A stretch of DNA of 62,454 bases, from positions 1 to 62,454 of the forward strand of contig SKSF01000081.1 of assembly GCA_007118095.1 (NCBI GenBank). The letters are read 5' to 3'. The stretch comes from Dehalococcoidia bacterium (lineage in GTDB: Bacteria > Chloroflexota > Dehalococcoidia > Tepidiformales > Tepidiformaceae). Numbering within the stretch: position 1 is the stretch's first letter; each line of letters opens with the position of its first letter. Of this stretch, positions 5,600 through 43,963 are shown piece after piece. The notes below the pieces were generated by a model that was not told the origin of the DNA, ran no database searches, and saw only the letters and a program-made list of their open reading frames with translations. A program made the position numbers and the translations under genes.

Positions 5600-7390
5600 T
5601 CAGGGCACCTCCGCCGGGATGCGCGCCGCCGCGCTGTAGACATCGTTGAGGATTTTCAGCCGCGTCTGGTCGTCGACGAACAGCGGCCGGTGCATATCCT
5701 CGATCTGGCACGGGATCAGCTTCACGGCCGCGAGGCGGTCCTCCCAGAAGCTGGCCTCGACCAGATAGCACTGGTAGTGCTCCGGCGTGTGGCGCTGGTC
5801 GTAAACGAAGTTCCCCAGCGCATAGGCGATGAACGTATCGTCCCACGCCTCAGCGGCCTGCACATGATGCGCCTGGTTCGCCGCGACCACATCGGCGCCC
5901 ACATCCGCGACCGCACGGTGGGCTTTCACGCTCCGCAGTGCGGCGTCATGAGTATCTTCGGTGCCGGATTGCGGCAGAGTGATGACGAAATCGACCTCCT
6001 CCTTGAGGGCAGCCACGCGTTCCGTAATCCGGTCCGTCCCCAGCGTTTCGACCGGCGCGTCGAAGGCCATCGATGAGTAGCCCTCGGCCAGCTCGGCCGA
6101 GTAGTCGTCGTCCATGGGTGCGGTGCCCGGCTCGTCTTCCGTCGCGCCCAGGTGCATCGCCTGGATGTCGTCATAGCCGAGAAACCCGAAGGTCAGCCCG
6201 TTCCGCTCAAAGATGAGCGGTTCGAAGGCCTCTTCCAGGTTGCGCCCGCCGCCGACCGTCGGGATGCCCGCCTCCTCGAAGTGGTCGAGCGTGGCGAGGA
6301 ACGTCTCCTCGCACCAGAGCCCCCCGGTCCCACAGTCGAACACGTGGTTGGAAGCGATGGTCACCCCGTCGAATCCCGCATGGTGGATCATTTCGAGCGC
6401 TTCAGGAGGCGTGCTGAGATTGACGTGCTCGTGGCATCGGTGGTGGTCGTAGATGTCGTGCACGCCCGCATCCCATGACCCTATAGCAAGGTCGGCCGAT
6501 CCAATGTAGTCGGCCATCTCGCCCCGGAACGGCGACGCCCAGTCACCGCTTTGCTCGATCCGTTGCAGCGAACAGCGCACCGGCAGGATATCGCCCGTCA
6601 GGACGACGCTCGTGACCTCCGGCGCTTCCGGGCCGTTCGCATCGAGCATTGCCAGCGCCTCCTCCCCCCGGTCGGTCAGCGGCTCCACCGAGACACGCTC
6701 CACAAGGGGCCAGCCGGCCGGGTCGCCATAGCCACGCGCCAGGTCGACGCCGTCAACGGTCACCGCGCTAACGGACACGTGAAGCTCCTCGAGGGGGATG
6801 AGAGCAACCGCCCCGGAATCGGGCTCGAGCGCGCCCACGAGTTCTTCGTAATCCTGGAACGTCTGGTCCGGCGTGACGCCGCCGGCGAATTCGCCCGCGA
6901 TTTCGAGCCCGGCGCTGTCCTCCACGGCATAGACGTTGATGGGGCCATCGAGCCCGCCGAGCTCGGACCAGTTCGTCGCACCACCTGAGAGCGCGGCAGC
7001 GAGCTGGTCGCTCGTGAGCTCGTCGATGGCGGTCCATTGCGCGACAACCGGCACGTAATAGCCGGTCGCGAGACCGTCGTCGCCCCCGGTCCGCGCGAAC
7101 CGGAGGTCGGCCGACTCATCGTCAGCAGCCTGGCGCATGTTGGGCAGATTCAATGATTCGGGGACTTCACCTTCGAAGAGGACTTCCTCGCCGCCAGGCG
7201 TATCACCGTTCTCCTCACCGGGAGTTGGCGACGGCTCGCCGCTATCGCCGCCGCCACCGGGGAGCGGCACGTCGTTACTCCCGCCGCCGGTTACATCGGC
7301 AATAACGAAGACGAGGTAGACGAGGGCGGCGAGGACAGCGACCGCGGCGCCAATGAAGCCGACGGTCCAGGGGGCAATGGGAGACCGCAT
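5600..7390 (-). CDS. membrane-anchored CapA-family protein with N-terminal binding-protein-like region
   Basis: 596 residues. One N-terminal membrane segment (about 9-31) is followed by a Gly/Pro/Glu-rich linker (35-70). Residues about 75-260 look like a periplasmic phosphate-binding-type domain (TSDQLAAALSGGATNWSELGG, VALIPLEEL). From about 265 the CapA/poly-gamma-glutamate metallophosphatase-like fold begins: VVLTGDILPV, TIASNHVFDCG, FGFLGYDDI and NQAHHVQ supply the metal-ligand positions. Known CapA members act in surface poly-gamma-glutamate synthesis or are uncharacterised surface proteins. No capB/capC genes are near, so a capsule role is not supported. Divergent from the VWA gene across a 328-bp gap. 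The substrate is unknown. Confidence 0.8.
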   Translation of the reverse strand: MRSPIAPWTVGFIGAAVAVLAALVYLVFVIADVTGGGSNDVPLPGGGGDSGEPSPTPGEENGDTPGGEEVLFEGEVPESLNLPNMRQAADDESADLRFARTGGDDGLATGYYVPVVAQWTAIDELTSDQLAAALSGGATNWSELGGLDGPINVYAVEDSAGLEIAGEFAGGVTPDQTFQDYEELVGALEPDSGAVALIPLEELHVSVSAVTVDGVDLARGYGDPAGWPLVERVSVEPLTDRGEEALAMLDANGPEAPEVTSVVLTGDILPVRCSLQRIEQSGDWASPFRGEMADYIGSADLAIGSWDAGVHDIYDHHRCHEHVNLSTPPEALEMIHHAGFDGVTIASNHVFDCGTGGLWCEETFLATLDHFEEAGIPTVGGGRNLEEAFEPLIFERNGLTFGFLGYDDIQAMHLGATEDEPGTAPMDDDYSAELAEGYSSMAFDAPVETLGTDRITERVAALKEEVDFVITLPQSGTEDTHDAALRSVKAHRAVADVGADVVAANQAHHVQAAEAWDDTFIAYALGNFVYDQRHTPEHYQCYLVEASFWEDRLAAVKLIPCQIEDMHRPLFVDDQTRLKILNDVYSAAARIPAEVP

Positions 7391-15079: not shown

Positions 15080-15100
15080 TCGATACACCCCGTGAGGAAC

Positions 15101-16447
15101 ATGTCCCGCTTACCACAATTTCCCCGCCGCTGGATAAAAATCCCCCACGCCGCCCGCACGTTGCTGGCGGCAGCATGGCTTGCGGGCGCTTTCGCGTTCG
15201 TCTTCGCCTGGAACGCTGCCAGCGATGAGGGTTCCAGCGTGCAGCAGCCCGGCAATGATCAGCGCCCCGGCGCACAGGCGGCGATGGCCGGCGCCACCGG
15301 GGACAACACACAGCGCGAGGGCCTCCAGCGCGAAGACCCGGGCGACCTCGCGGCCATCACGCCCGGGGCGGCGGCCACACCCTTCGACATCGACGAACCG
15401 CTGCTCATCCCCGACGTGACCGATTCGGAAGAGGCTGGCGAAGGCGCCGTCCCGGAACCCGAGACGACAGACGAGCGCGTGGTTTCCGACCGCGCGAATC
15501 GCTTCGAGCTGCCGCTCGAGGACTGGTCATACGTGACCGACCGCTTCGGTGCGCCCCGCGGCGGGGGCTTCGTCCACGGGGGAATCGACCTCGCCGTCAA
15601 TGGAACGCTCTCGGGTTCGCCCATCTACGCAAGCTGCGATGGGACCGTTTCGGTGAGCGAATACTCGCGGATCTATGGCTACTACATCGTGGTGGATTGC
15701 GGCGGTGGCTGGGCAACGCTGTACGCCCACATGAGCCAGATCTACGCGGACCGTGGCCAGCAGGTCACCCAGATCACAGCACTCGGGCGGACTGGGAACA
15801 CCGGTTTCTCCACCGGCGAGCACCTCCACTTCGAAATCATCCACCAGGGGGTCCGCGTCAACCCCGAGCACTACCTCGACTTCAATATCCCGGCCGGCAC
15901 GCCGCTGTCCCGCAACCGCATCCTGTCACCTGACCCCGGCGCTCCACGCCAGACCGATGGCGCCAATACGTGGCCCGGTGGAGGTGGCAGCGGAAGCGAC
16001 AGCAGCGGAACGAGCGGTTCCGGTGGCTCCGGTGGTTCGGGCAGCAGCGGCGGTTCTGGCGGATCCGGCACCGGCGGAAGCGGCACTTCCGGCGGATCAG
16101 GCAGCAGTGGTGGTGGCTCGGGTGGGTCCGGCTCGAGCGGCAGTGGCGGATCCGGCGGTTCATCCGGCTCAGGCGAATCTGGCGGTGGTTCCGGCGGGTC
16201 CGGTAACTCCGGCGGATCGGGGGACACGTCGCCCACGACGCCACCGACCGAACCGCCACCCCCGACCGCCACCCCGACGCCTGCTCCGACGGCAACGCCG
16301 ACTGCAACGCCGACGCCCATCATTCCGCCGACGGCTACACCGGTGCCCCCAACACCGACGCCGACGCCCATACCCACCGCGACCCCCACACCGACGCCGG
16401 AGCCACCCACGCCAACTCCAACGCCGAGCCAGCCGCGCGTCTTTTAG
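15101..16447 (+). CDS. secreted M23-family peptidoglycan peptidase with Gly/Ser and Thr/Pro tails
   Basis: Peptidoglycan endopeptidase or its regulatory relative. About 448 residues; an N-terminal membrane segment (about 20-40) anchors or exports it. The LytM domain (about 135-265) has the zinc ligands HGGIDLAV (His, Asp) and the C-terminal GEHLHFEII (His-x-His), plus YAHM, so it looks catalytically complete. Then follow about 85 residues of Gly/Ser repeats and about 60 residues of Thr/Pro repeats, a wall-spanning stalk. The start is either ATG 15101 (GAGG 3 nt before it) or GTG 15092. A possible structured leader precedes it. Converges with the SDR gene. Confidence 0.87.
   Translation: MSRLPQFPRRWIKIPHAARTLLAAAWLAGAFAFVFAWNAASDEGSSVQQPGNDQRPGAQAAMAGATGDNTQREGLQREDPGDLAAITPGAAATPFDIDEPLLIPDVTDSEEAGEGAVPEPETTDERVVSDRANRFELPLEDWSYVTDRFGAPRGGGFVHGGIDLAVNGTLSGSPIYASCDGTVSVSEYSRIYGYYIVVDCGGGWATLYAHMSQIYADRGQQVTQITALGRTGNTGFSTGEHLHFEIIHQGVRVNPEHYLDFNIPAGTPLSRNRILSPDPGAPRQTDGANTWPGGGGSGSDSSGTSGSGGSGGSGSSGGSGGSGTGGSGTSGGSGSSGGGSGGSGSSGSGGSGGSSGSGESGGGSGGSGNSGGSGDTSPTTPPTEPPPPTATPTPAPTATPTATPTPIIPPTATPVPPTPTPTPIPTATPTPTPEPPTPTPTPSQPRVF
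15976..16228 (+). repeat. degenerate GGCGGxTCCGG-type repeats coding a Gly/Ser stalk
   Basis: Inside the M23 gene; SGGSGGSG-like units encoded by near-identical short repeats, directly followed by ACGCCGAC-type repeats encoding TPTPTP (about 16230-16440). Prone to length change. Confidence 0.75.
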
Positions 16448-36500: not shown

Positions 36501-36624
36501 GCTCACAGGATAGGCCAAAGCTCGAGCCCGCGTGAGCCGTGCGACAGGCACGCTGCTGAGCTCACCTTGCGCCGCCCCCGGCGAAGCCCATAATGTCCCG
36601 GCAATCCGGAGGTGGAGGGACCCC

Positions 36625-37398
36625 TTGGCAAGCTACGTACGCTTCGAGCAAAAGGACGGCAGCCGCGGCGCTGGCGTCATCGAAAAAGACACGATCCGCG
36701 TCATCGAGGAGCCGTTCTGGGAAAGTATTCAGACCACAGGCGAGCGGATCGCAATGAGCGCCGTCACACTGCTTCCGCCGTGCGAGCCGCGTTCCATCAT
36801 CTGCGTAGGGCTGAACTACGCCAGCCATCTCCAGGGACGCCCTGCCCCGGACCCGCCAACACTGTTCTTCAAGCCACTTTCGAGCATCGCGGGGCCTGAC
36901 GAACCCATCGTGCTCCCTTCCAACGCTGGCCGCGTCGACCCGGAGGGCGAGATTGTCATCGTCATCGGCGCGACGCTGCGAAATGCGACTCGCGAGGAAG
37001 CGGAAGCGGGCATCTTCGGCTACACGTGTGGAAACGATGTCTCCGCACGCGAGTGGCAACGGGGCGACGGCCAGTGGTGGCGCGCGAAGGGCGCCGACAC
37101 CTTCGGCCCGTTCGGCCCCGACATCGTCACAGGCCTCGACCACACGGCGATCGAGCTCAAGACGCGCGTGAATGGAAACGAAGTCCAGTCCGCGGTATCA
37201 GACGAGCTCATCCTCGACATCCCGGAAATCGTCCGGTACGTGAGCAGCGCAATGACCCTGGCGCCAGGCGACATCATCTTCTCGGGGACGCCCGGCACGC
37301 CCCCGGAGATCCACGCTGGCGACGTGGTCGAGGTCGAGATCAGTGGTTCGATGGTGCTCCGTAACCCCGTCAAAGCAGCGCGGGAGGTCCCGGCCTAG
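36625..37398 (+). CDS. fumarylacetoacetate hydrolase (FAH) family protein
   Basis: 257 residues. Cleaves C-C bonds of diketo or oxo acids in aromatic degradation, or acts as a hydratase/decarboxylase. Motifs: SIICVGLNYASHLQG (about 60), metal Glu pair and Asp in DPEGEIVIVIG, GYTCGNDVSAREWQR, SGTPGTPPEIHAGDVVEVEI. The start is TTG 36625, because GGAGGTGGAGGGA (36608-36620), an unusually long Shine-Dalgarno, stands just before it; upstream in-frame ATG 36532 has none. Substrate unknown. The stop overlaps the convergent lipoprotein gene by 4 nt. Confidence 0.88.
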   Translation: MASYVRFEQKDGSRGAGVIEKDTIRVIEEPFWESIQTTGERIAMSAVTLLPPCEPRSIICVGLNYASHLQGRPAPDPPTLFFKPLSSIAGPDEPIVLPSNAGRVDPEGEIVIVIGATLRNATREEAEAGIFGYTCGNDVSAREWQRGDGQWWRAKGADTFGPFGPDIVTGLDHTAIELKTRVNGNEVQSAVSDELILDIPEIVRYVSSAMTLAPGDIIFSGTPGTPPEIHAGDVVEVEISGSMVLRNPVKAAREVPA

Positions 37399-38246
37399 CC
37401 CACGGCGCTCGGGCGCCCCTCCATCTCATCACGGAGCGTGCAGTCGCCCAGCGCCGCATTCGACGTTTGGTCAGCCGGCACCCAGCCGTCGCCGGCGCCA
37501 GTCACCTGGTACCAGCCCGTCCCGTGGTTATCGAGCGTGCCGGGCTGAGTGAGCACGAACCCCCTTGCTGTCACGACCTCGCCGCGTGCGATTTCACCGG
37601 CAGACCCGGCGCCGCTGGCAGGGCTTTCCCGCACAGTCGTCGCCTCACCGTCGCTGCAAATGCGCAGGTCACCAGGGACATCGAGCAGCTCGTAAGGGTC
37701 CATCTGGGTGATGGTCCAGAACTGCCAAACACCAGCACCGTCACGCGCCATCACAACCAGCGCACCCCCACCACCAGCACCCTGGTATGCGAGCCGGGTA
37801 ATCGGGCCGGAGACGTCGGTCGTACCGTCCGGCATCTCGGATACGCAGTCATCGCCTTCGTCGCAAGCGTCGCCGGTCGGGACCCCCAGGGCGTCCGAGG
37901 CTGACTGGAGTGCCCCGGCGAGGTCGTTGGCGTCATCGCCGTCGCCACCGTTGCCCCCGTTCCCCGCATTGTCACCGTTGTCGGCGTTGTCGCCGCTATT
38001 GGGAGTTCCATCCCCGGGGGCGGCGTCATCCCCGGGTCCGTTCGCACCATCGTCGCCGGGGGACGGCGGAGTTGGCGTTTCCGGCGCTGGCGTGGGTGCG
38101 ATACCGACATCCTCCGCGGGTGTTGGCGTGGCGGTCTCATCACCCCGGAGCCCGTCCTCTTCGATGGGGCTACAGGCAGCAAGTGCGACCAACACGACGC
38201 CCAGGGATAATGACGTGAACCGCACTATTGTTTTGGTGTGACCCAT
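37395..38246 (-). CDS. lipoprotein with SH3-like C-terminal domain
   Basis: 283 residues from ATG 38246 (GAGG 9 nt before it). Lipobox LVALAAC with Cys near residue 24, so it is lipidated and held on the outer face of the membrane. A long Thr/Pro then Gly/Asn/Asp-rich spacer (about 30-120) is followed by a compact domain with two Cys (GDACDEGDDCVSE). The C-terminal SH3-like part (ICSDGEATTVRESPASGAGSAGEIARGEVVTARGF...GWYQVTGAGDGWVPADQTS) resembles bacterial SH3b modules that bind cell wall. First downstream neighbour of the CHAP/SH3 gene; a hairpin separates the two. Confidence 0.8.
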   Translation of the reverse strand: MGHTKTIVRFTSLSLGVVLVALAACSPIEEDGLRGDETATPTPAEDVGIAPTPAPETPTPPSPGDDGANGPGDDAAPGDGTPNSGDNADNGDNAGNGGNGGDGDDANDLAGALQSASDALGVPTGDACDEGDDCVSEMPDGTTDVSGPITRLAYQGAGGGGALVVMARDGAGVWQFWTITQMDPYELLDVPGDLRICSDGEATTVRESPASGAGSAGEIARGEVVTARGFVLTQPGTLDNHGTGWYQVTGAGDGWVPADQTSNAALGDCTLRDEMEGRPSAVG

Positions 38247-38275
38247 CGAAACAAACCTCATCCAGGCACTGAACG

Positions 38276-38306
38276 ACCGTGCCCCCACCAGGGGCGGGGG
38301 CACGGT
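38276..38306 (-). terminator. hairpin between the CHAP and lipoprotein genes
   Basis: ACCGTGCCCCC (38276-38286) and GGGGGCACGGT (38296-38306) are perfect complements. On the minus strand no long T-run follows, so it may be a weak terminator or an attenuator that lowers lipoprotein expression. Confidence 0.55.
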
Positions 38307-38339: not shown

Positions 38340-39527
38340 TTAGTTGGCGGTCAGGAACTCCCTGGCTGACCAGCCCTGGACACCATTTGCCCGCTCAACC
38401 TTGAGCCACGTGTAGCCATCGCCAGTGACGGGCCCGTCCAGGATTGTCACCTTGGTGCCATCGAACATGCAATCGAGGATCTCAGCGCTGAGGCTCGTAT
38501 CTTCACGATGGTAGAGGCAGGAACCGTCCGTATCGACGGCAACCGTTGCACCGATGTCGAAGCCGGCCGCGTCATCTGCATCTTCAGTCGAACCTTCGGC
38601 TGCATCAGCGGATTCCACGGGCTCCTCGGCTTCCTCCGTGCCCTCGTCAGTACTCTCGTCAGCGCTCTCCTCGCTCGCATCGTCCGCCGAAGCAGCGGCC
38701 GCGCTCGAGGTCTTCTCCAGGAACTCGGCTGCAACCCAGCCTTCCTGCCCGGCACTCGTAGTGACCTTAACCCAGGTGTACCCATCGGCACTGGTTGCCG
38801 ACTCACTGGTGACCGTCACATCCGTCGCCGCCGAGAGGCAGGTGAGGACGCCACTGCTGGTGGTCGCGTTGGAGCGGAGGTTGAGGCAGGAGTCGCCAGC
38901 ATCGACCCGGGCGCCGTCACCGGCACCGAGGTCCGGGGCGGTCGGGAGATCCGCCGAAGGCGAGGAGCTGCTGCTCGAACCACTGCTGCTGGATGAACCA
39001 CTGCTGCTCGACGATGAGCTGCTCGATGAGGAGCTGCCGCTCGACGCATCAAAGCGGTAACCGTAGAGCTGGAGGCCGTTCCGGAGGCGCGGTGTCCAGT
39101 CATGCACACGGACACGCTCGTCCCACTGCCAGTTCGAATCGATAACCTTGTACGACCCGTTGCCGTAGTTCTCGATCACGATGACGGTATGCATGCCGGG
39201 GTAGTACTGTTCGCCGTTGTTCGGGTGGGCGATCTGGAGCACGTCCCCAGCCTGGGCGTTTGCCGGGTTAATCTCGGTGCCGGCATTCAGGTACGCCTGG
39301 CGGTAGCCGGAACCGATCCAGATGCCGGTGGCATCGTGGACAGCCCACTGGGCGAAGGGCTTGCACTGCCCACCATGACCGCCCAGCTTCTTCAAGCCTG
39401 ACTGGACGATCGGATGGTTCATGCCATCGCTTTGCTGGGCCGACGAACCTTGCGGTTGGACGGCCACAACGGCAAGGAGGGCAAGGACGAGTGCGACGGG
39501 TAGGAATCGCGGAAAAGAAGTCTTCAT
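38340..39527 (-). CDS. secreted CHAP-domain hydrolase with two SH3b domains
   Basis: 395 residues from ATG 39527, AGGTGG 4 nt upstream. Signal peptide about 1-31 (VVAVQPQGSSAQ). CHAP-type Cys/His amidase or peptidase domain: GGQCKPFAQWAVHDATG carries the Cys, and YYPGMHTVIVIENYGNGSYKVIDSNW the His and polar residue. A poly-Ser tract (about 165-195) leads to SH3b number 1 (CLNLRSNATTSSGVLTCLSAATDVTV...GWVAAEFLEK), a Glu/Asp/Ser linker, and SH3b number 2 (CLYHREDTSLSAEILDCMFDGTKVTI...GWSAREFL). A peptidoglycan hydrolase is likely. Each SH3b has a Cys pair that may form a disulfide. Neighbours are two other SH3-like proteins. Confidence 0.87.
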   Translation of the reverse strand: MKTSFPRFLPVALVLALLAVVAVQPQGSSAQQSDGMNHPIVQSGLKKLGGHGGQCKPFAQWAVHDATGIWIGSGYRQAYLNAGTEINPANAQAGDVLQIAHPNNGEQYYPGMHTVIVIENYGNGSYKVIDSNWQWDERVRVHDWTPRLRNGLQLYGYRFDASSGSSSSSSSSSSSSGSSSSSGSSSSSSPSADLPTAPDLGAGDGARVDAGDSCLNLRSNATTSSGVLTCLSAATDVTVTSESATSADGYTWVKVTTSAGQEGWVAAEFLEKTSSAAAASADDASEESADESTDEGTEEAEEPVESADAAEGSTEDADDAAGFDIGATVAVDTDGSCLYHREDTSLSAEILDCMFDGTKVTILDGPVTGDGYTWLKVERANGVQGWSAREFLTAN

Positions 39528-39863
39528 ATAACCACCTGTTTGCGGGGGCAACTAGCTGAGGCCAAGTGGGAACCTAACCGCCCCTGTGATAGGCCTGCAA
39601 CGTAAGGTAAGGGCGTCGTTACGTGCGGTAGATACCTCGTGGCGGTATTTTGCGGAAAGTTTACCGGTACCTTTCGCCAGCTTTGCGCAGCATACTCGCA
39701 GAAACTGGCGGGGAAAAGCTCGCGTGGTGACATGCCTGTTGCGCGCCTGTCACCTGCTTTCTCCCCGGCACCTACCTTTCCATCACGGGATCCACGATGA
39801 CACGCACGTCTGCCGCACCCGCCACATGGTGGCGTGCGGTCCATCGGCATCCCTGCCCGCTGC
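39528..39863. other. 336-bp intergenic region before the CHAP gene
   Basis: No supported gene. It holds an inverted repeat GGTGACA (39726-39732)/TGTCACC (39748-39754) and AAAGTTTACCGGTACCTTT at 39656-39674, a near-palindrome. CHAP genes in other bacteria often have long leaders or riboswitches; I could not match this one to a class. Confidence 0.4.
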
Positions 39864-42113
39864 CTATGCCCAGTCGAGGTGTTGGATGGCGAGCCAGCCC
39901 ATCGGCCCGGTTTCACTCTGAACGTGTACGTAAACCTGCCCCGACCGGGGGCTGCCCTCGCCGGCGGCGATTGCGCTGGGACCACCACTTCCAGTCGGGT
40001 TCCCACCCGGCGGGTTGGCCGGGTCCACAACCGTCACAACGGTCCCTTCGAGCAGACATTCCAGGATAACCGCGTCGCTGCCAGCCTCTTCGCGGAGGTC
40101 GAGGCAGTCATCGACACGGGCAACCGCCAGGGTAACCGTGTCCCGGTATGGCGGAGACTCAACAACCGGCGGGAGCAGCGTCCCGGGAGCGGGCTGCGCC
40201 GGCGCCGGGAACATGGTGCTTGTCCCGATCCCCACGCCGCTACCCGCTGTCGCAAAGCCTTCGCTCTCACCAGTACGGACGAACGCGAACCGCATTTCGT
40301 CTTCGCGTTCGCCCCACGGATCGAGGGCCTGCAGCAGCGGCACGTCCGCCGGGCCCAGGAGAATGTCTGACGCGCGGTCCCACGCCAGCGCCCCTCCAAT
40401 TGAAAACAGGCCCGGGTCGAACGGCGATGGCTGCGGACCTGCCCGCCATCCCAGCGTTATCGCTTCACCCGGCAGCGGGAATGGTTCCAGCTCGACGCCC
40501 TCGTCCGCGGGGCGCACCAGGTAGTACTCGCGGCTCTGCCGCCACTCAAGGTAGCTCCGGACGGAGGGTTCCACCGCCTGCGCTTCCACAATGAATCCGC
40601 TCGAGTCGGCCAGCCACCGCCGGTCGAATACGGGGTGATACTGGAGCTGGCCCGAGAGGATGCGCCCCAACGACGTCCCCTCGTCCGTCTCAATAACCTC
40701 GGTGTAGACCCAGTCTTCGGAATCGGGCATTTCGCCCGGTACGCGGCTCCGGAGGCTCCCCTGGGTCACGCGGTATCGGCCATCGGGCGAAGTACTCTTC
40801 GTGTCCCCGGGGTTTTGCCGGCCACGGCTCTCCACCGACGCGACCCGCCCCCGGTAACCGAGCTGAACCTCGAACAACTCGGGCGTCGCTCCGGGGGTAT
40901 CGCCGGCGCCAATCGCGTACGCCTCGAGCCGGAATGTACCCGCCTCATGACCCGGGGCAACGGAGCCCACCTGCAAGGGCGGTTCGCCGCCGTCGCCATT
41001 GTCCTCCGGGTGAGGGATCTCGACCCGTGCCACCGCCCCCGTGGACACCTCGACCACATACACCTGGGCCCCGGTGTTAATGGCGAGCCATTCGTGGTCC
41101 GGTGATGCGGCGATGTGGGCGAACCCGTGGCGCGCAGAGACAATATCGAAGGTAGAGACCGCGGCGAGGTCCGCATCCAGGATATCGAAGCGTCCGGTGA
41201 GCTCTGACCGGGACTGCTCCCCGGTTCTGAGCCCGGCAAACACGAAGATCTCGTCGTCGAAGTAACTCAGCTTGAGCACCGACGCGGGCCACTGGTATCC
41301 ACGTCCCGCTGGCCGGTGGTAGAGGTGCGAGGTCTCGGCCAGCGAGCCTGGCAGCCCTTCGACCAGGATGAATTCGTTCCGGGGGCTCACACGGTACCGG
41401 TAGAGAGGATGGGCGCCGGGCTCGCCGGGCGCCTGCAGCACGTCGGTATCGCCGGTTTCCAGGCTGACGAAGCCAGCGCCGTGCTCCAGTCCGAGCGGCG
41501 CGCCGTTCGCAACGGTGGTGCGCACCCAGGAGTCACCAGCGTCCTCGATGACGCTGGTGCCGGGATGCGGCTCCGGCGCCGGGGGCGTCGTTGGCTCCGG
41601 TTCAGGGGTGTCCGGGGTAAACGGACCAGAGGGGGCCGCTGGCGTGGTTCCATCGGCAGATTCGAGGATGAAATAGCCAGCGACGCCCGCCATGGTGGCA
41701 CCGCCCACCAGCACGGTCCCGAGCATCGCGCGGCGCGAATAGACGGGCTCCAGCGGGTCATCATCACCCGGCTCAGCAGGCGACCCGGGTCCGCCAGGGC
41801 CCCTGGCATCTTCAACAGGGTCGCGTGAGGGGTGGTCTTCCTCGTCAGGGAAGAGGTCCGGGCCAGTTGGCCGGGAGGTGGCGGGTACCGAAGCGGCCAG
41901 CGTAGAGACTTCGACGTTCGAAAGGTCAACCTCTACCAGCGATGCGCGGTCAGGCACGCCAAATCGCTGCTGAAGGCGCTCGATGCGCTCTTTGACTTCC
42001 CGAATTGAAAGACCGACACGGGCAGCGATCTCCGCATCCGGCGCGCCACGCCGAATCGATTCAATGATCGCGTGATCCGTGGGCATGAGCGGCGTTTCGC
42101 CTGGATCGGTCAC
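39864..42113 (-). CDS. HTH-transmembrane-beta-propeller-SH3 protein (putative membrane-tethered regulator)
   Basis: 749 residues from GTG 42113 (GGGGG upstream). Residues about 10-60 look like a LuxR/GerE-type helix-turn-helix: AIIESIRRGAPDAEIAARVGLSIREVKERIERLQQRF. An acidic/Pro linker follows, then one membrane helix (about 128-150, preceded by SRR). The large outer part (about 190-640) has repeated beta-blade-like strands (YVVEVSTGAVARVEIP, SFDGRYRVT-type blades) as in beta-propellers. The end (about 675-749) is SH3-like, CLDLREEAGSDAVILECLLEGTVVTVV...GWLAIQHLDW. Topology: DNA-binding head inside, sensor outside. Function inferred only from this order of parts. Confidence 0.72.
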   Translation of the reverse strand: MTDPGETPLMPTDHAIIESIRRGAPDAEIAARVGLSIREVKERIERLQQRFGVPDRASLVEVDLSNVEVSTLAASVPATSRPTGPDLFPDEEDHPSRDPVEDARGPGGPGSPAEPGDDDPLEPVYSRRAMLGTVLVGGATMAGVAGYFILESADGTTPAAPSGPFTPDTPEPEPTTPPAPEPHPGTSVIEDAGDSWVRTTVANGAPLGLEHGAGFVSLETGDTDVLQAPGEPGAHPLYRYRVSPRNEFILVEGLPGSLAETSHLYHRPAGRGYQWPASVLKLSYFDDEIFVFAGLRTGEQSRSELTGRFDILDADLAAVSTFDIVSARHGFAHIAASPDHEWLAINTGAQVYVVEVSTGAVARVEIPHPEDNGDGGEPPLQVGSVAPGHEAGTFRLEAYAIGAGDTPGATPELFEVQLGYRGRVASVESRGRQNPGDTKSTSPDGRYRVTQGSLRSRVPGEMPDSEDWVYTEVIETDEGTSLGRILSGQLQYHPVFDRRWLADSSGFIVEAQAVEPSVRSYLEWRQSREYYLVRPADEGVELEPFPLPGEAITLGWRAGPQPSPFDPGLFSIGGALAWDRASDILLGPADVPLLQALDPWGEREDEMRFAFVRTGESEGFATAGSGVGIGTSTMFPAPAQPAPGTLLPPVVESPPYRDTVTLAVARVDDCLDLREEAGSDAVILECLLEGTVVTVVDPANPPGGNPTGSGGPSAIAAGEGSPRSGQVYVHVQSETGPMGWLAIQHLDWA

Positions 42114-42242: not shown

Positions 42243-42476
42243 TTATGCGCCGTGCTCGAACTCGGGAGGGCGGTGGCCGCAGCGGCCGGTAACCGTATCA
42301 ATGCACCCATCGGAGCCGGCGTATCGCCCGAGCAGCGGCCGGCCTGCGATATCGTACGCGTCCAGGAGCTTCCGGAACGCAGCCGCTTCCATTTCCGTGA
42401 GTGGCTGTCCGTCCGCAATCTTGCGGGTGCATTCGCGCCCGAAGCGCTGAAGCATCTCAGCGTCCACGGGCGCCAT
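42243..42476 (-). CDS. small hypothetical protein downstream of the helicase
   Basis: 77 residues from ATG 42476, preceded by GGAG 8 nt upstream; a GTG start inside the helicase stop region is also possible. MAPVDAEMLQRFGRECTRKI, then an amphipathic helix and a C-terminal part with three Cys (GRECT, DGCID, GRCGH) and a final HRPPEFEHGA. A metal site is possible but unproved. I do not recognise it. It follows the DEAD-box gene by 26 nt, so it is probably co-transcribed. Confidence 0.5.
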   Translation of the reverse strand: MAPVDAEMLQRFGRECTRKIADGQPLTEMEAAAFRKLLDAYDIAGRPLLGRYAGSDGCIDTVTGRCGHRPPEFEHGA

Positions 42477-42502
42477 TCTACCTGCTCCGGTGGGCAGCTC
42501 GC

Positions 42503-43963
42503 CTAGTCCCACTGAGACGGGAGCGGCATGTACTCGGGCCCTTCGCCCTCCAGGCTCGCGGTCACCCGATCCCAGTCATCCAGTTCCCATTCGCTGACGA
42601 ATGTCACCGAGGTACCGGTCTTCCCGGCGCGTGCGGTGCGGCCAACGCGATGGATGTACTCTTCGGCGTTCTGCGGGACGTCGTAGTTGATGACGTGGTC
42701 GATGTCCGGGATGTCCAGCCCGCGCGACGCGACGTTCGTGGCAACGAGGAATTCCAGGTTACCGCTACGGAAGTCCGCCATCACACGGTCGCGCTCACCC
42801 TGGGGAAGGTCGCCGTGGATAGCACGAGCCGGGACGCCAGCGCGCTTCAGATTTTCCGCGAGCCTGTCAACGCCTGCGCGTGTGCGCCGGAAGATAAGCG
42901 ACCGGCCGAGGCCCTTCTCTTCAAAGAGGTACCGCAGGGCGAAAAACTTGTCGCGTTCTGCGACCTCGCAGTAGTACTGCTCGACGCCCGCAGCCGGGGA
43001 CTGGCCCGCCGTCACCGACACTTCGGCCGGTTCGCTGAGATGCCGGTACACGAGCCTGCGAATCTCGGGGGGCATCGTGGCGCTAAAGAGCGCACCCTGC
43101 CGCTCACGGGGCAGTTTCCGGAGGATGAAGTTGATATCCCGCGCGAACCCGATATCGAACATCTGGTCCGCTTCGTCGAGCACGACATAGTGGACCCGGC
43201 CGAGGTCGAGCGTCTTGCGGTTGATATGGTCGATTACCCGCCCGGGCGTGCCGACGATGACATGCGGATTCTGCTCGAGGCGCTGGAAGTCACCATTGAT
43301 GCGGCGCCCGCCAACCAGCCCGGTCGAGCGGAAGCCGTAGAACTTGCCCAGGTGTTCGAACGTCTCCAGCACCTGGTTCGCGAGTTCGCGGGTGGGCACC
43401 AGTATGAGCGCCTGCACATGCTGCTTCGCAGGGTTGATGCTGCGGGCCAGCGGTATGCCGAACGCCAGCGTTTTCCCGGTGCCCGTCTGCGCCAGTCCGA
43501 CCACATCCTGGCCGCCAAGCAACAACGGAATGGCTTCCTCCTGGATGGGAGTGGGCTGATCAAAGCCAAGCGCGGCGACGGCCTGCAGAGCAGTATCGTC
43601 GATGCCAAGTGCCCGGAACGCTTCCGGGGCTGCCAGGTCTGTCGCGCCGGGTTCGTCCTTCGATGCCCCGCGGGGCTCGCCCGCCTGCTGTTCCGTGGCC
43701 TTTGCGCCACCGCCACCCTTCCGGCTACCGCGCGAACGGCGGCGGCGCGGGCGCCCTTCGGGTTCGCCCTGGTGCCGGGAAGATTCGTGGTCCGAGGAAG
43801 AAGAAGGGGGGTCGGCGACTGCGACTGCGCCGGGGGAGGTAGTGTCTTCGGTCGAATTGGTCGGGGTGGAGTCGGTCGTCTCGGGGGGCGCGGATGTGGA
43901 CCCGGCATGGGCCCTCTTTCGCCCGAGTAGTCTATCGAGTAACAGGTTCAACATTCCTTTCAT
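42503..43963 (-). CDS. DEAD-box ATP-dependent RNA helicase
   Basis: 486 residues. Helicase core from about 112: Q motif (FDQPTPIQEEAIP), AQTGTGKT (motif I), PTRELA (Ia), TPGR (Ib), VLDEADQM (II, DEAD), FSATMP (III, SAT), then SLIFRRT (IV), TNVASRGLDI (V) and HRVGRTARAGKTG (VI). Unlike E. coli RhlE/CsdA, where the basic tail is C-terminal, here the disordered Arg/Ser/Gly-rich extension is N-terminal (about 15-110) and the C-terminus is short. RNA remodelling, ribosome assembly or cold adaptation are the family roles. A long leader of roughly 125 nt from a TATCCT box is likely. Confidence 0.94.
   Translation of the reverse strand: MKGMLNLLLDRLLGRKRAHAGSTSAPPETTDSTPTNSTEDTTSPGAVAVADPPSSSSDHESSRHQGEPEGRPRRRRSRGSRKGGGGAKATEQQAGEPRGASKDEPGATDLAAPEAFRALGIDDTALQAVAALGFDQPTPIQEEAIPLLLGGQDVVGLAQTGTGKTLAFGIPLARSINPAKQHVQALILVPTRELANQVLETFEHLGKFYGFRSTGLVGGRRINGDFQRLEQNPHVIVGTPGRVIDHINRKTLDLGRVHYVVLDEADQMFDIGFARDINFILRKLPRERQGALFSATMPPEIRRLVYRHLSEPAEVSVTAGQSPAAGVEQYYCEVAERDKFFALRYLFEEKGLGRSLIFRRTRAGVDRLAENLKRAGVPARAIHGDLPQGERDRVMADFRSGNLEFLVATNVASRGLDIPDIDHVINYDVPQNAEEYIHRVGRTARAGKTGTSVTFVSEWELDDWDRVTASLEGEGPEYMPLPSQWD

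Follow-up and report, generated by a model that had tools for sequence, protein, structure and literature searches.

Gene organisation of the locus

We analysed a window of 62,454 nucleotides (all coordinates refer to this stretch), which forms one contig of a 3.2-Mb Dehalococcoidia genome. The gene studied here, P0001, is an ORF of 749 codons on the minus strand which fills positions 39864-42113 exactly, with a GTG start at 42113 and the stop at 39864; the G-rich GGGGGC upstream of it is Shine-Dalgarno-like. An initial annotation, made from the sequence alone, had described a 749-residue chain at this position, to which we add the strand. An inverted-repeat operator was searched for just upstream of the gene and none was found, and a promoter scan found no promoter.

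Directly upstream of P0001 lies a conserved small ORF of 89 amino acids (42243-42512, minus strand) which has no Pfam family, followed by a conserved DEAD-box helicase gene (42503-43963, minus strand). The conserved convergent neighbour belongs to the fumarylacetoacetate hydrolase (FAA hydrolase) family (36532-37398, plus strand). The order helicase, small ORF, P0001 and FAA hydrolase is common to locus L066 and partial in L083, L085 and L088; the small ORF is 49% identical to the ORF in the equivalent position at L066 and is present in L026 too. Two inserted SH3 genes separate P0001 from the FAA hydrolase gene: one encodes a CHAP protein with two SH3 domains (38340-39551, minus strand) and the other an SH3 protein bearing a lipobox-like signal (37395-38303, minus strand). 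Both are missing at the equivalent spot in L066, L083 and L085. Elsewhere in the window, the gene at 5600-7390 (minus strand) contains a PGA_cap (capsule synthesis) domain with a weak phosphate-binding-protein-like region ahead of it, and the gene at 15092-16447 (plus strand) encodes an M23 peptidase with a long tail rich in Ser/Gly and Pro/Thr.

The helix-turn-helix head

The N-terminal domain of P0001 comprises residues 10-61 (41931-42086, minus strand). In the AlphaFold2 model, which was built with 11 family sequences, it consists of four helices (residues 11-21, 26-33, 37-51 and 56-61), and the pLDDT block means lie at 90-94 for residues 11-60. The initial annotation had proposed a helix-turn-helix (HTH) fold in residues 10-60, to be checked by structure prediction, and the model returns a confident four-helix HTH there (residues 11-61). 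Based on this model, the family profile and conservation, we assign the head to the LuxR/GerE class. Compared alone with Pfam, P0001 matches HTH_AsnC with 22 bits and GerE with 13.8 bits, both below their cut-offs (23.5 for GerE). The AsnC type, the best single-sequence match, was rejected because a profile of 29 family heads gives the LuxR/GerE class, matching LiaR, VraR, NarL and GerE chains. There was no Pfam match to Trans_reg_C (the OmpR-type winged HTH) in P0001 or its relatives, nor to HTH_25 (the RodZ type) in P0001. Many paralogous heads score above the GerE cut-off.

The net charge of the head is +1 in P0001; the mean is -0.1 in its subtype and +3.3 in the heads of soluble LuxR proteins from the same genus. 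Most heads retain the recognition-helix lysine, but L012, L017, L031, L066 and L035 have another residue there. A near-neutral head, the loss of this canonical lysine in part of the subtype and the existence of HTH-less versions would all fit an HTH which is kept for protein contacts and not for DNA, as in RodZ; P0001 would then be a scaffold or adhesin of the envelope, coupled to a partner in the cytoplasm. However, the head is of the LuxR/GerE and not the RodZ HTH_25 class, two separate HTH_25 proteins are encoded in the same genome, and the paralogous heads score as canonical GerE. We regard such a role as unlikely, though the charge and the lysine loss leave it with an appreciable minor share of the weight.

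Membrane segment and topology

Concerning the region between the head and the outer domain, an acidic, proline-rich cytoplasmic linker (residues 62-124; 41742-41930, minus strand), predicted to be disordered (pLDDT below 50 from residue 72), leads to a putative twin-arginine (Tat-type) signal anchor (residues 126-150; 41664-41738, minus strand), which is followed by an outer linker rich in proline and threonine (residues 151-189; 41547-41663, minus strand; low pLDDT to residue 179). The membrane helix falls at about residues 130-150 (hydropathy 1.7), with the Tat-like motif SRRAML directly before it. Residues 72-179, helix included, have a pLDDT below 50 and the model contains no confident helix there, so the membrane helix proposed in the initial annotation is placed by hydropathy and by the homologues, which both support it. 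The motif [S/T]RR-x-hydrophobic-hydrophobic ahead of a moderately hydrophobic stretch is found in 14 of the 16 informative propeller-family members (L013, which has another outer domain, and the truncated contigs L008 and L034 were left out of the count); one of the two exceptions has YSLRAIV and the other a lipobox. The other paralogues with an HTH and a transmembrane segment (HTH-TM) have ordinary membrane helices without the Tat motif. TatC is encoded in the same genome as P0001, and we infer that the Tat route is used, the segment apparently being an uncleaved signal anchor.

The membrane segment is flanked on either side by long disordered linkers, which would also suit cleavage in or near the membrane, by which the HTH would be freed as a soluble regulator and the head would become active only then. 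However, the alignment of the homologues contains no consistent cleavage motif or site past the hydrophobic stretch, and none of the genes in the conserved neighbourhood could be identified as encoding a membrane protease; we consider release of this kind improbable.

Of the homologues which lack the HTH, L009, L011, L014 and L082 have the same Tat segment at their start and L010 has a lipoprotein signal there. Since these are export signals, the outer domain is exported, and with a single helix this places the head in the cytoplasm. The opposite topology, an outside N-terminus, which the initial annotation had raised against itself, is contradicted by these signals; its reading of an inside HTH and an outside sensor is backed by them together with the model and the profile matches. 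The genome also encodes several peptidoglycan transpeptidases, so that a wall exists for the outer domain to face. Cultured Tepidiforma (Dehalococcoidia) have a peptidoglycan wall and are reported to be monoderm (PMC10284905).

The outer domains

The outer part is all-beta in the AlphaFold2 model. Residues 190-612 (40278-41546, minus strand) contain about 32 strands and form a predicted TolB-like beta-propeller of seven to eight blades, based on the model, the profile matches and an internal repeat: comparison of the outer profile with itself gives an offset of ~100 residues, which corresponds to two propeller blades. With the profile of the whole family, the matches come in the expected order: DevR/GerE for the head, TolB chains (E 6.5e-6 to 3.7e-5) for the outer domain and, weakly, SH3 chains for the end. 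A profile of the outer domain only (6 rows) had no match, so the link to TolB comes from the whole-family profile. PD40 (Pfam) is matched weakly in 2 of 19 relatives, and a search of solved structures with the single P0001 sequence gave nothing significant.

At the C-terminal end lies a bacterial SH3 domain that carries an insertion (residues 660-748; 39870-40136, minus strand), assigned from Pfam matches in relatives, the family alignments and the strands of the model. Pfam SH3_3 is found in 12 of the 19 relatives but not in P0001, whose SH3 domain has the insertion; its end aligns with those of the relatives in the family alignments A1 and A2. The fold model and the profile matches thus agree with the order HTH, membrane helix, propeller and SH3 first proposed for this chain.

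Distribution and conservation

A first search of the genome contigs with the P0001 sequence alone found no relatives; with an alignment as the query, nine loci were found. The same domain order recurs in homologues of many genomes, across genera, at 22-44% identity, which is more than would be expected by chance. The named relatives found via the homologues are mostly MAGs labelled Dehalococcoidia; an 'Anaerolinea sp.' and a 'Chloroflexi bacterium' are also among them, one of each.

There is also a difference in the conservation of the segments: between P0001 and a homologue of the same genus the head is the most conserved (63% identity vs 24% for the linker). For L083 and L085, the head has a dN/dS of 0.044 and the outer domain one of 0.29; judged by this ratio, the head is under strong purifying selection in this pair. 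In L066/L095 the tightest constraint is not on the head (0.22 vs 0.15), so the contrast is not universal. The outer domain also occurs without a head in several genomes. The outer-domain tree implies at least four head changes by parsimony; since its deep forks are weak, the number of gains and losses is only bounded, with at least two forced by well supported branches. By this count the same outer domain has repeatedly acquired or lost a head. A head which is repeatedly present and absent might suggest that the propeller and SH3 form an ordinary exported wall protein, to which a head without a regulatory role has been fused. The low head dN/dS in L083/L085 and the top rank of the head in conservation against the homologue of the same genus speak against this, and we consider it very improbable.

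Heads with the signature AEIAVRLG are found in genomes of the same family and of one other family of the class, where they are followed by a linker, one helix and RCC1 repeats, leucine-rich repeats, fn3 or SH3-ending domains. The RCC1 type, with GerE head, membrane helix and outer repeats in a single protein, is seen in L055, L059, L068, L057 and L061, and further such loci are L063, L052, L117, L131 and L140; leucine-rich repeats are found outside in L065 and fibronectin type III in L064. Further GerE-TM proteins, more distantly related, are encoded elsewhere in the class and also in P0001's own genome. One genome of another family of the class (G146) contains 16 GerE heads (E < 1e-12), and the heads read in L164 are mostly followed by a membrane helix. 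On one contig (G010:C176) two HTH-TM genes flank a propeller gene without an HTH, the three being closely spaced on the same strand. P0001 is thus a member of a large and as yet undescribed family of probable one-protein sensors, whose parts are mixed and matched.

Proposed function

We favour, with moderate confidence, the reading of P0001 as a single-pass transmembrane one-component transcription regulator which senses the cell envelope. The LuxR/GerE-type head would lie in the cytoplasm and the Tat-type, apparently uncleaved, anchor would span the membrane, having exported the already folded propeller and SH3 end into the wall space. There, a wall-associated or extracellular ligand would bind the outer part and change the oligomeric state, as a result of which two heads could pair on an operator. 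LuxR-type heads bind DNA as dimers.

Several lines of evidence argue for this function: the confident HTH model, the matches of the heads to LiaR, VraR, NarL and GerE, and the paralogous heads above the GerE cut-off; the profile matches in the order DevR/GerE, TolB and SH3, the same order across genera, and the export signals of the HTH-less homologues; the purifying selection on the head (one pair) and the presence of TatC and the transpeptidases; the exchange of the outer part in paralogues for other binding folds (RCC1, LRR and fn3), as expected of receptors; and the tandem, operon-like arrangement with other HTH-TM genes. Counted against it are the near-neutral head, the lysine loss in part of the subtype, the headless outer domains and the lack of an inverted-repeat operator in the upstream region searched.

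A more specific proposal, which we put forward tentatively and hold somewhat below even, is a Tat-dependent transmembrane regulator, in which a folded receptor is exported with the DNA-binding-type head left inside, as a branch within a family of modular Dehalococcoidia receptors that combines a single kind of LuxR head with propellers, RCC1, leucine-rich repeats or fibronectin. The findings point to direct membrane-to-gene sensors across a whole lineage, with interchangeable outer domains, in a poorly studied bacterial class, and raise the question of whether Tat can export a folded sensor yet leave a DNA-binding head in the cytoplasm.

Comparison with known systems

The openly accessible literature searched contained no description of the order HTH, transmembrane segment, propeller and SH3, and no NCBIfam model covers P0001. 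Within that literature and those models, the view of the initial annotation that no described protein has this exact order holds; transmembrane transcription regulators as such are well known, and P0001 is one of a large family. The four parts, their order and the topology read there are supported, and the one-component sensor proposed there is the probable function; the annotation had missed the Tat motif, the family, and the assignment of the HTH to the LuxR/GerE class.

RodZ resembles P0001 in having an HTH, one helix and an outer beta domain, but its HTH is of another family. Membership of P0001 in RodZ was rejected, since it has no HTH_25 match and its genome carries the RodZ-type genes separately. 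TolB, which belongs to the Tol-Pal system and is soluble in the periplasm, is alike in its propeller blades, which match by profile; unlike TolB, the P0001 propeller is tethered to a cytoplasmic HTH.

Other membrane regulators likewise have an outer propeller: CadC-like regulators with C-terminal PD40/TolB repeats, which differ from P0001 in HTH class, and the LuxR regulators of Bacteroidota with Reg_prop/Y_Y_Y sensors, in which the domain order is reversed. To our knowledge, neither has a Tat motif or SH3 domain. The heads of ToxR and CadC are OmpR-type winged HTHs.

Transmembrane transcription regulators are widespread (PMC10269533); the main text of that survey makes no mention of LuxR/GerE heads, WD40/PD40, propellers or Tat. 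P0001 has a DNA-binding-type domain (from fold and profile) and at least one transmembrane region (from hydropathy and homologues), as such regulators do. As the ToxR/CadC-type regulators are described there (PMC10269533), P0001 shares with them an N-terminal cytoplasmic DNA-binding-type head, one membrane helix and an outer sensor; unlike them, it combines a predicted LuxR/GerE-class head with a putative Tat-type anchor and a TolB-like propeller with an SH3 end.
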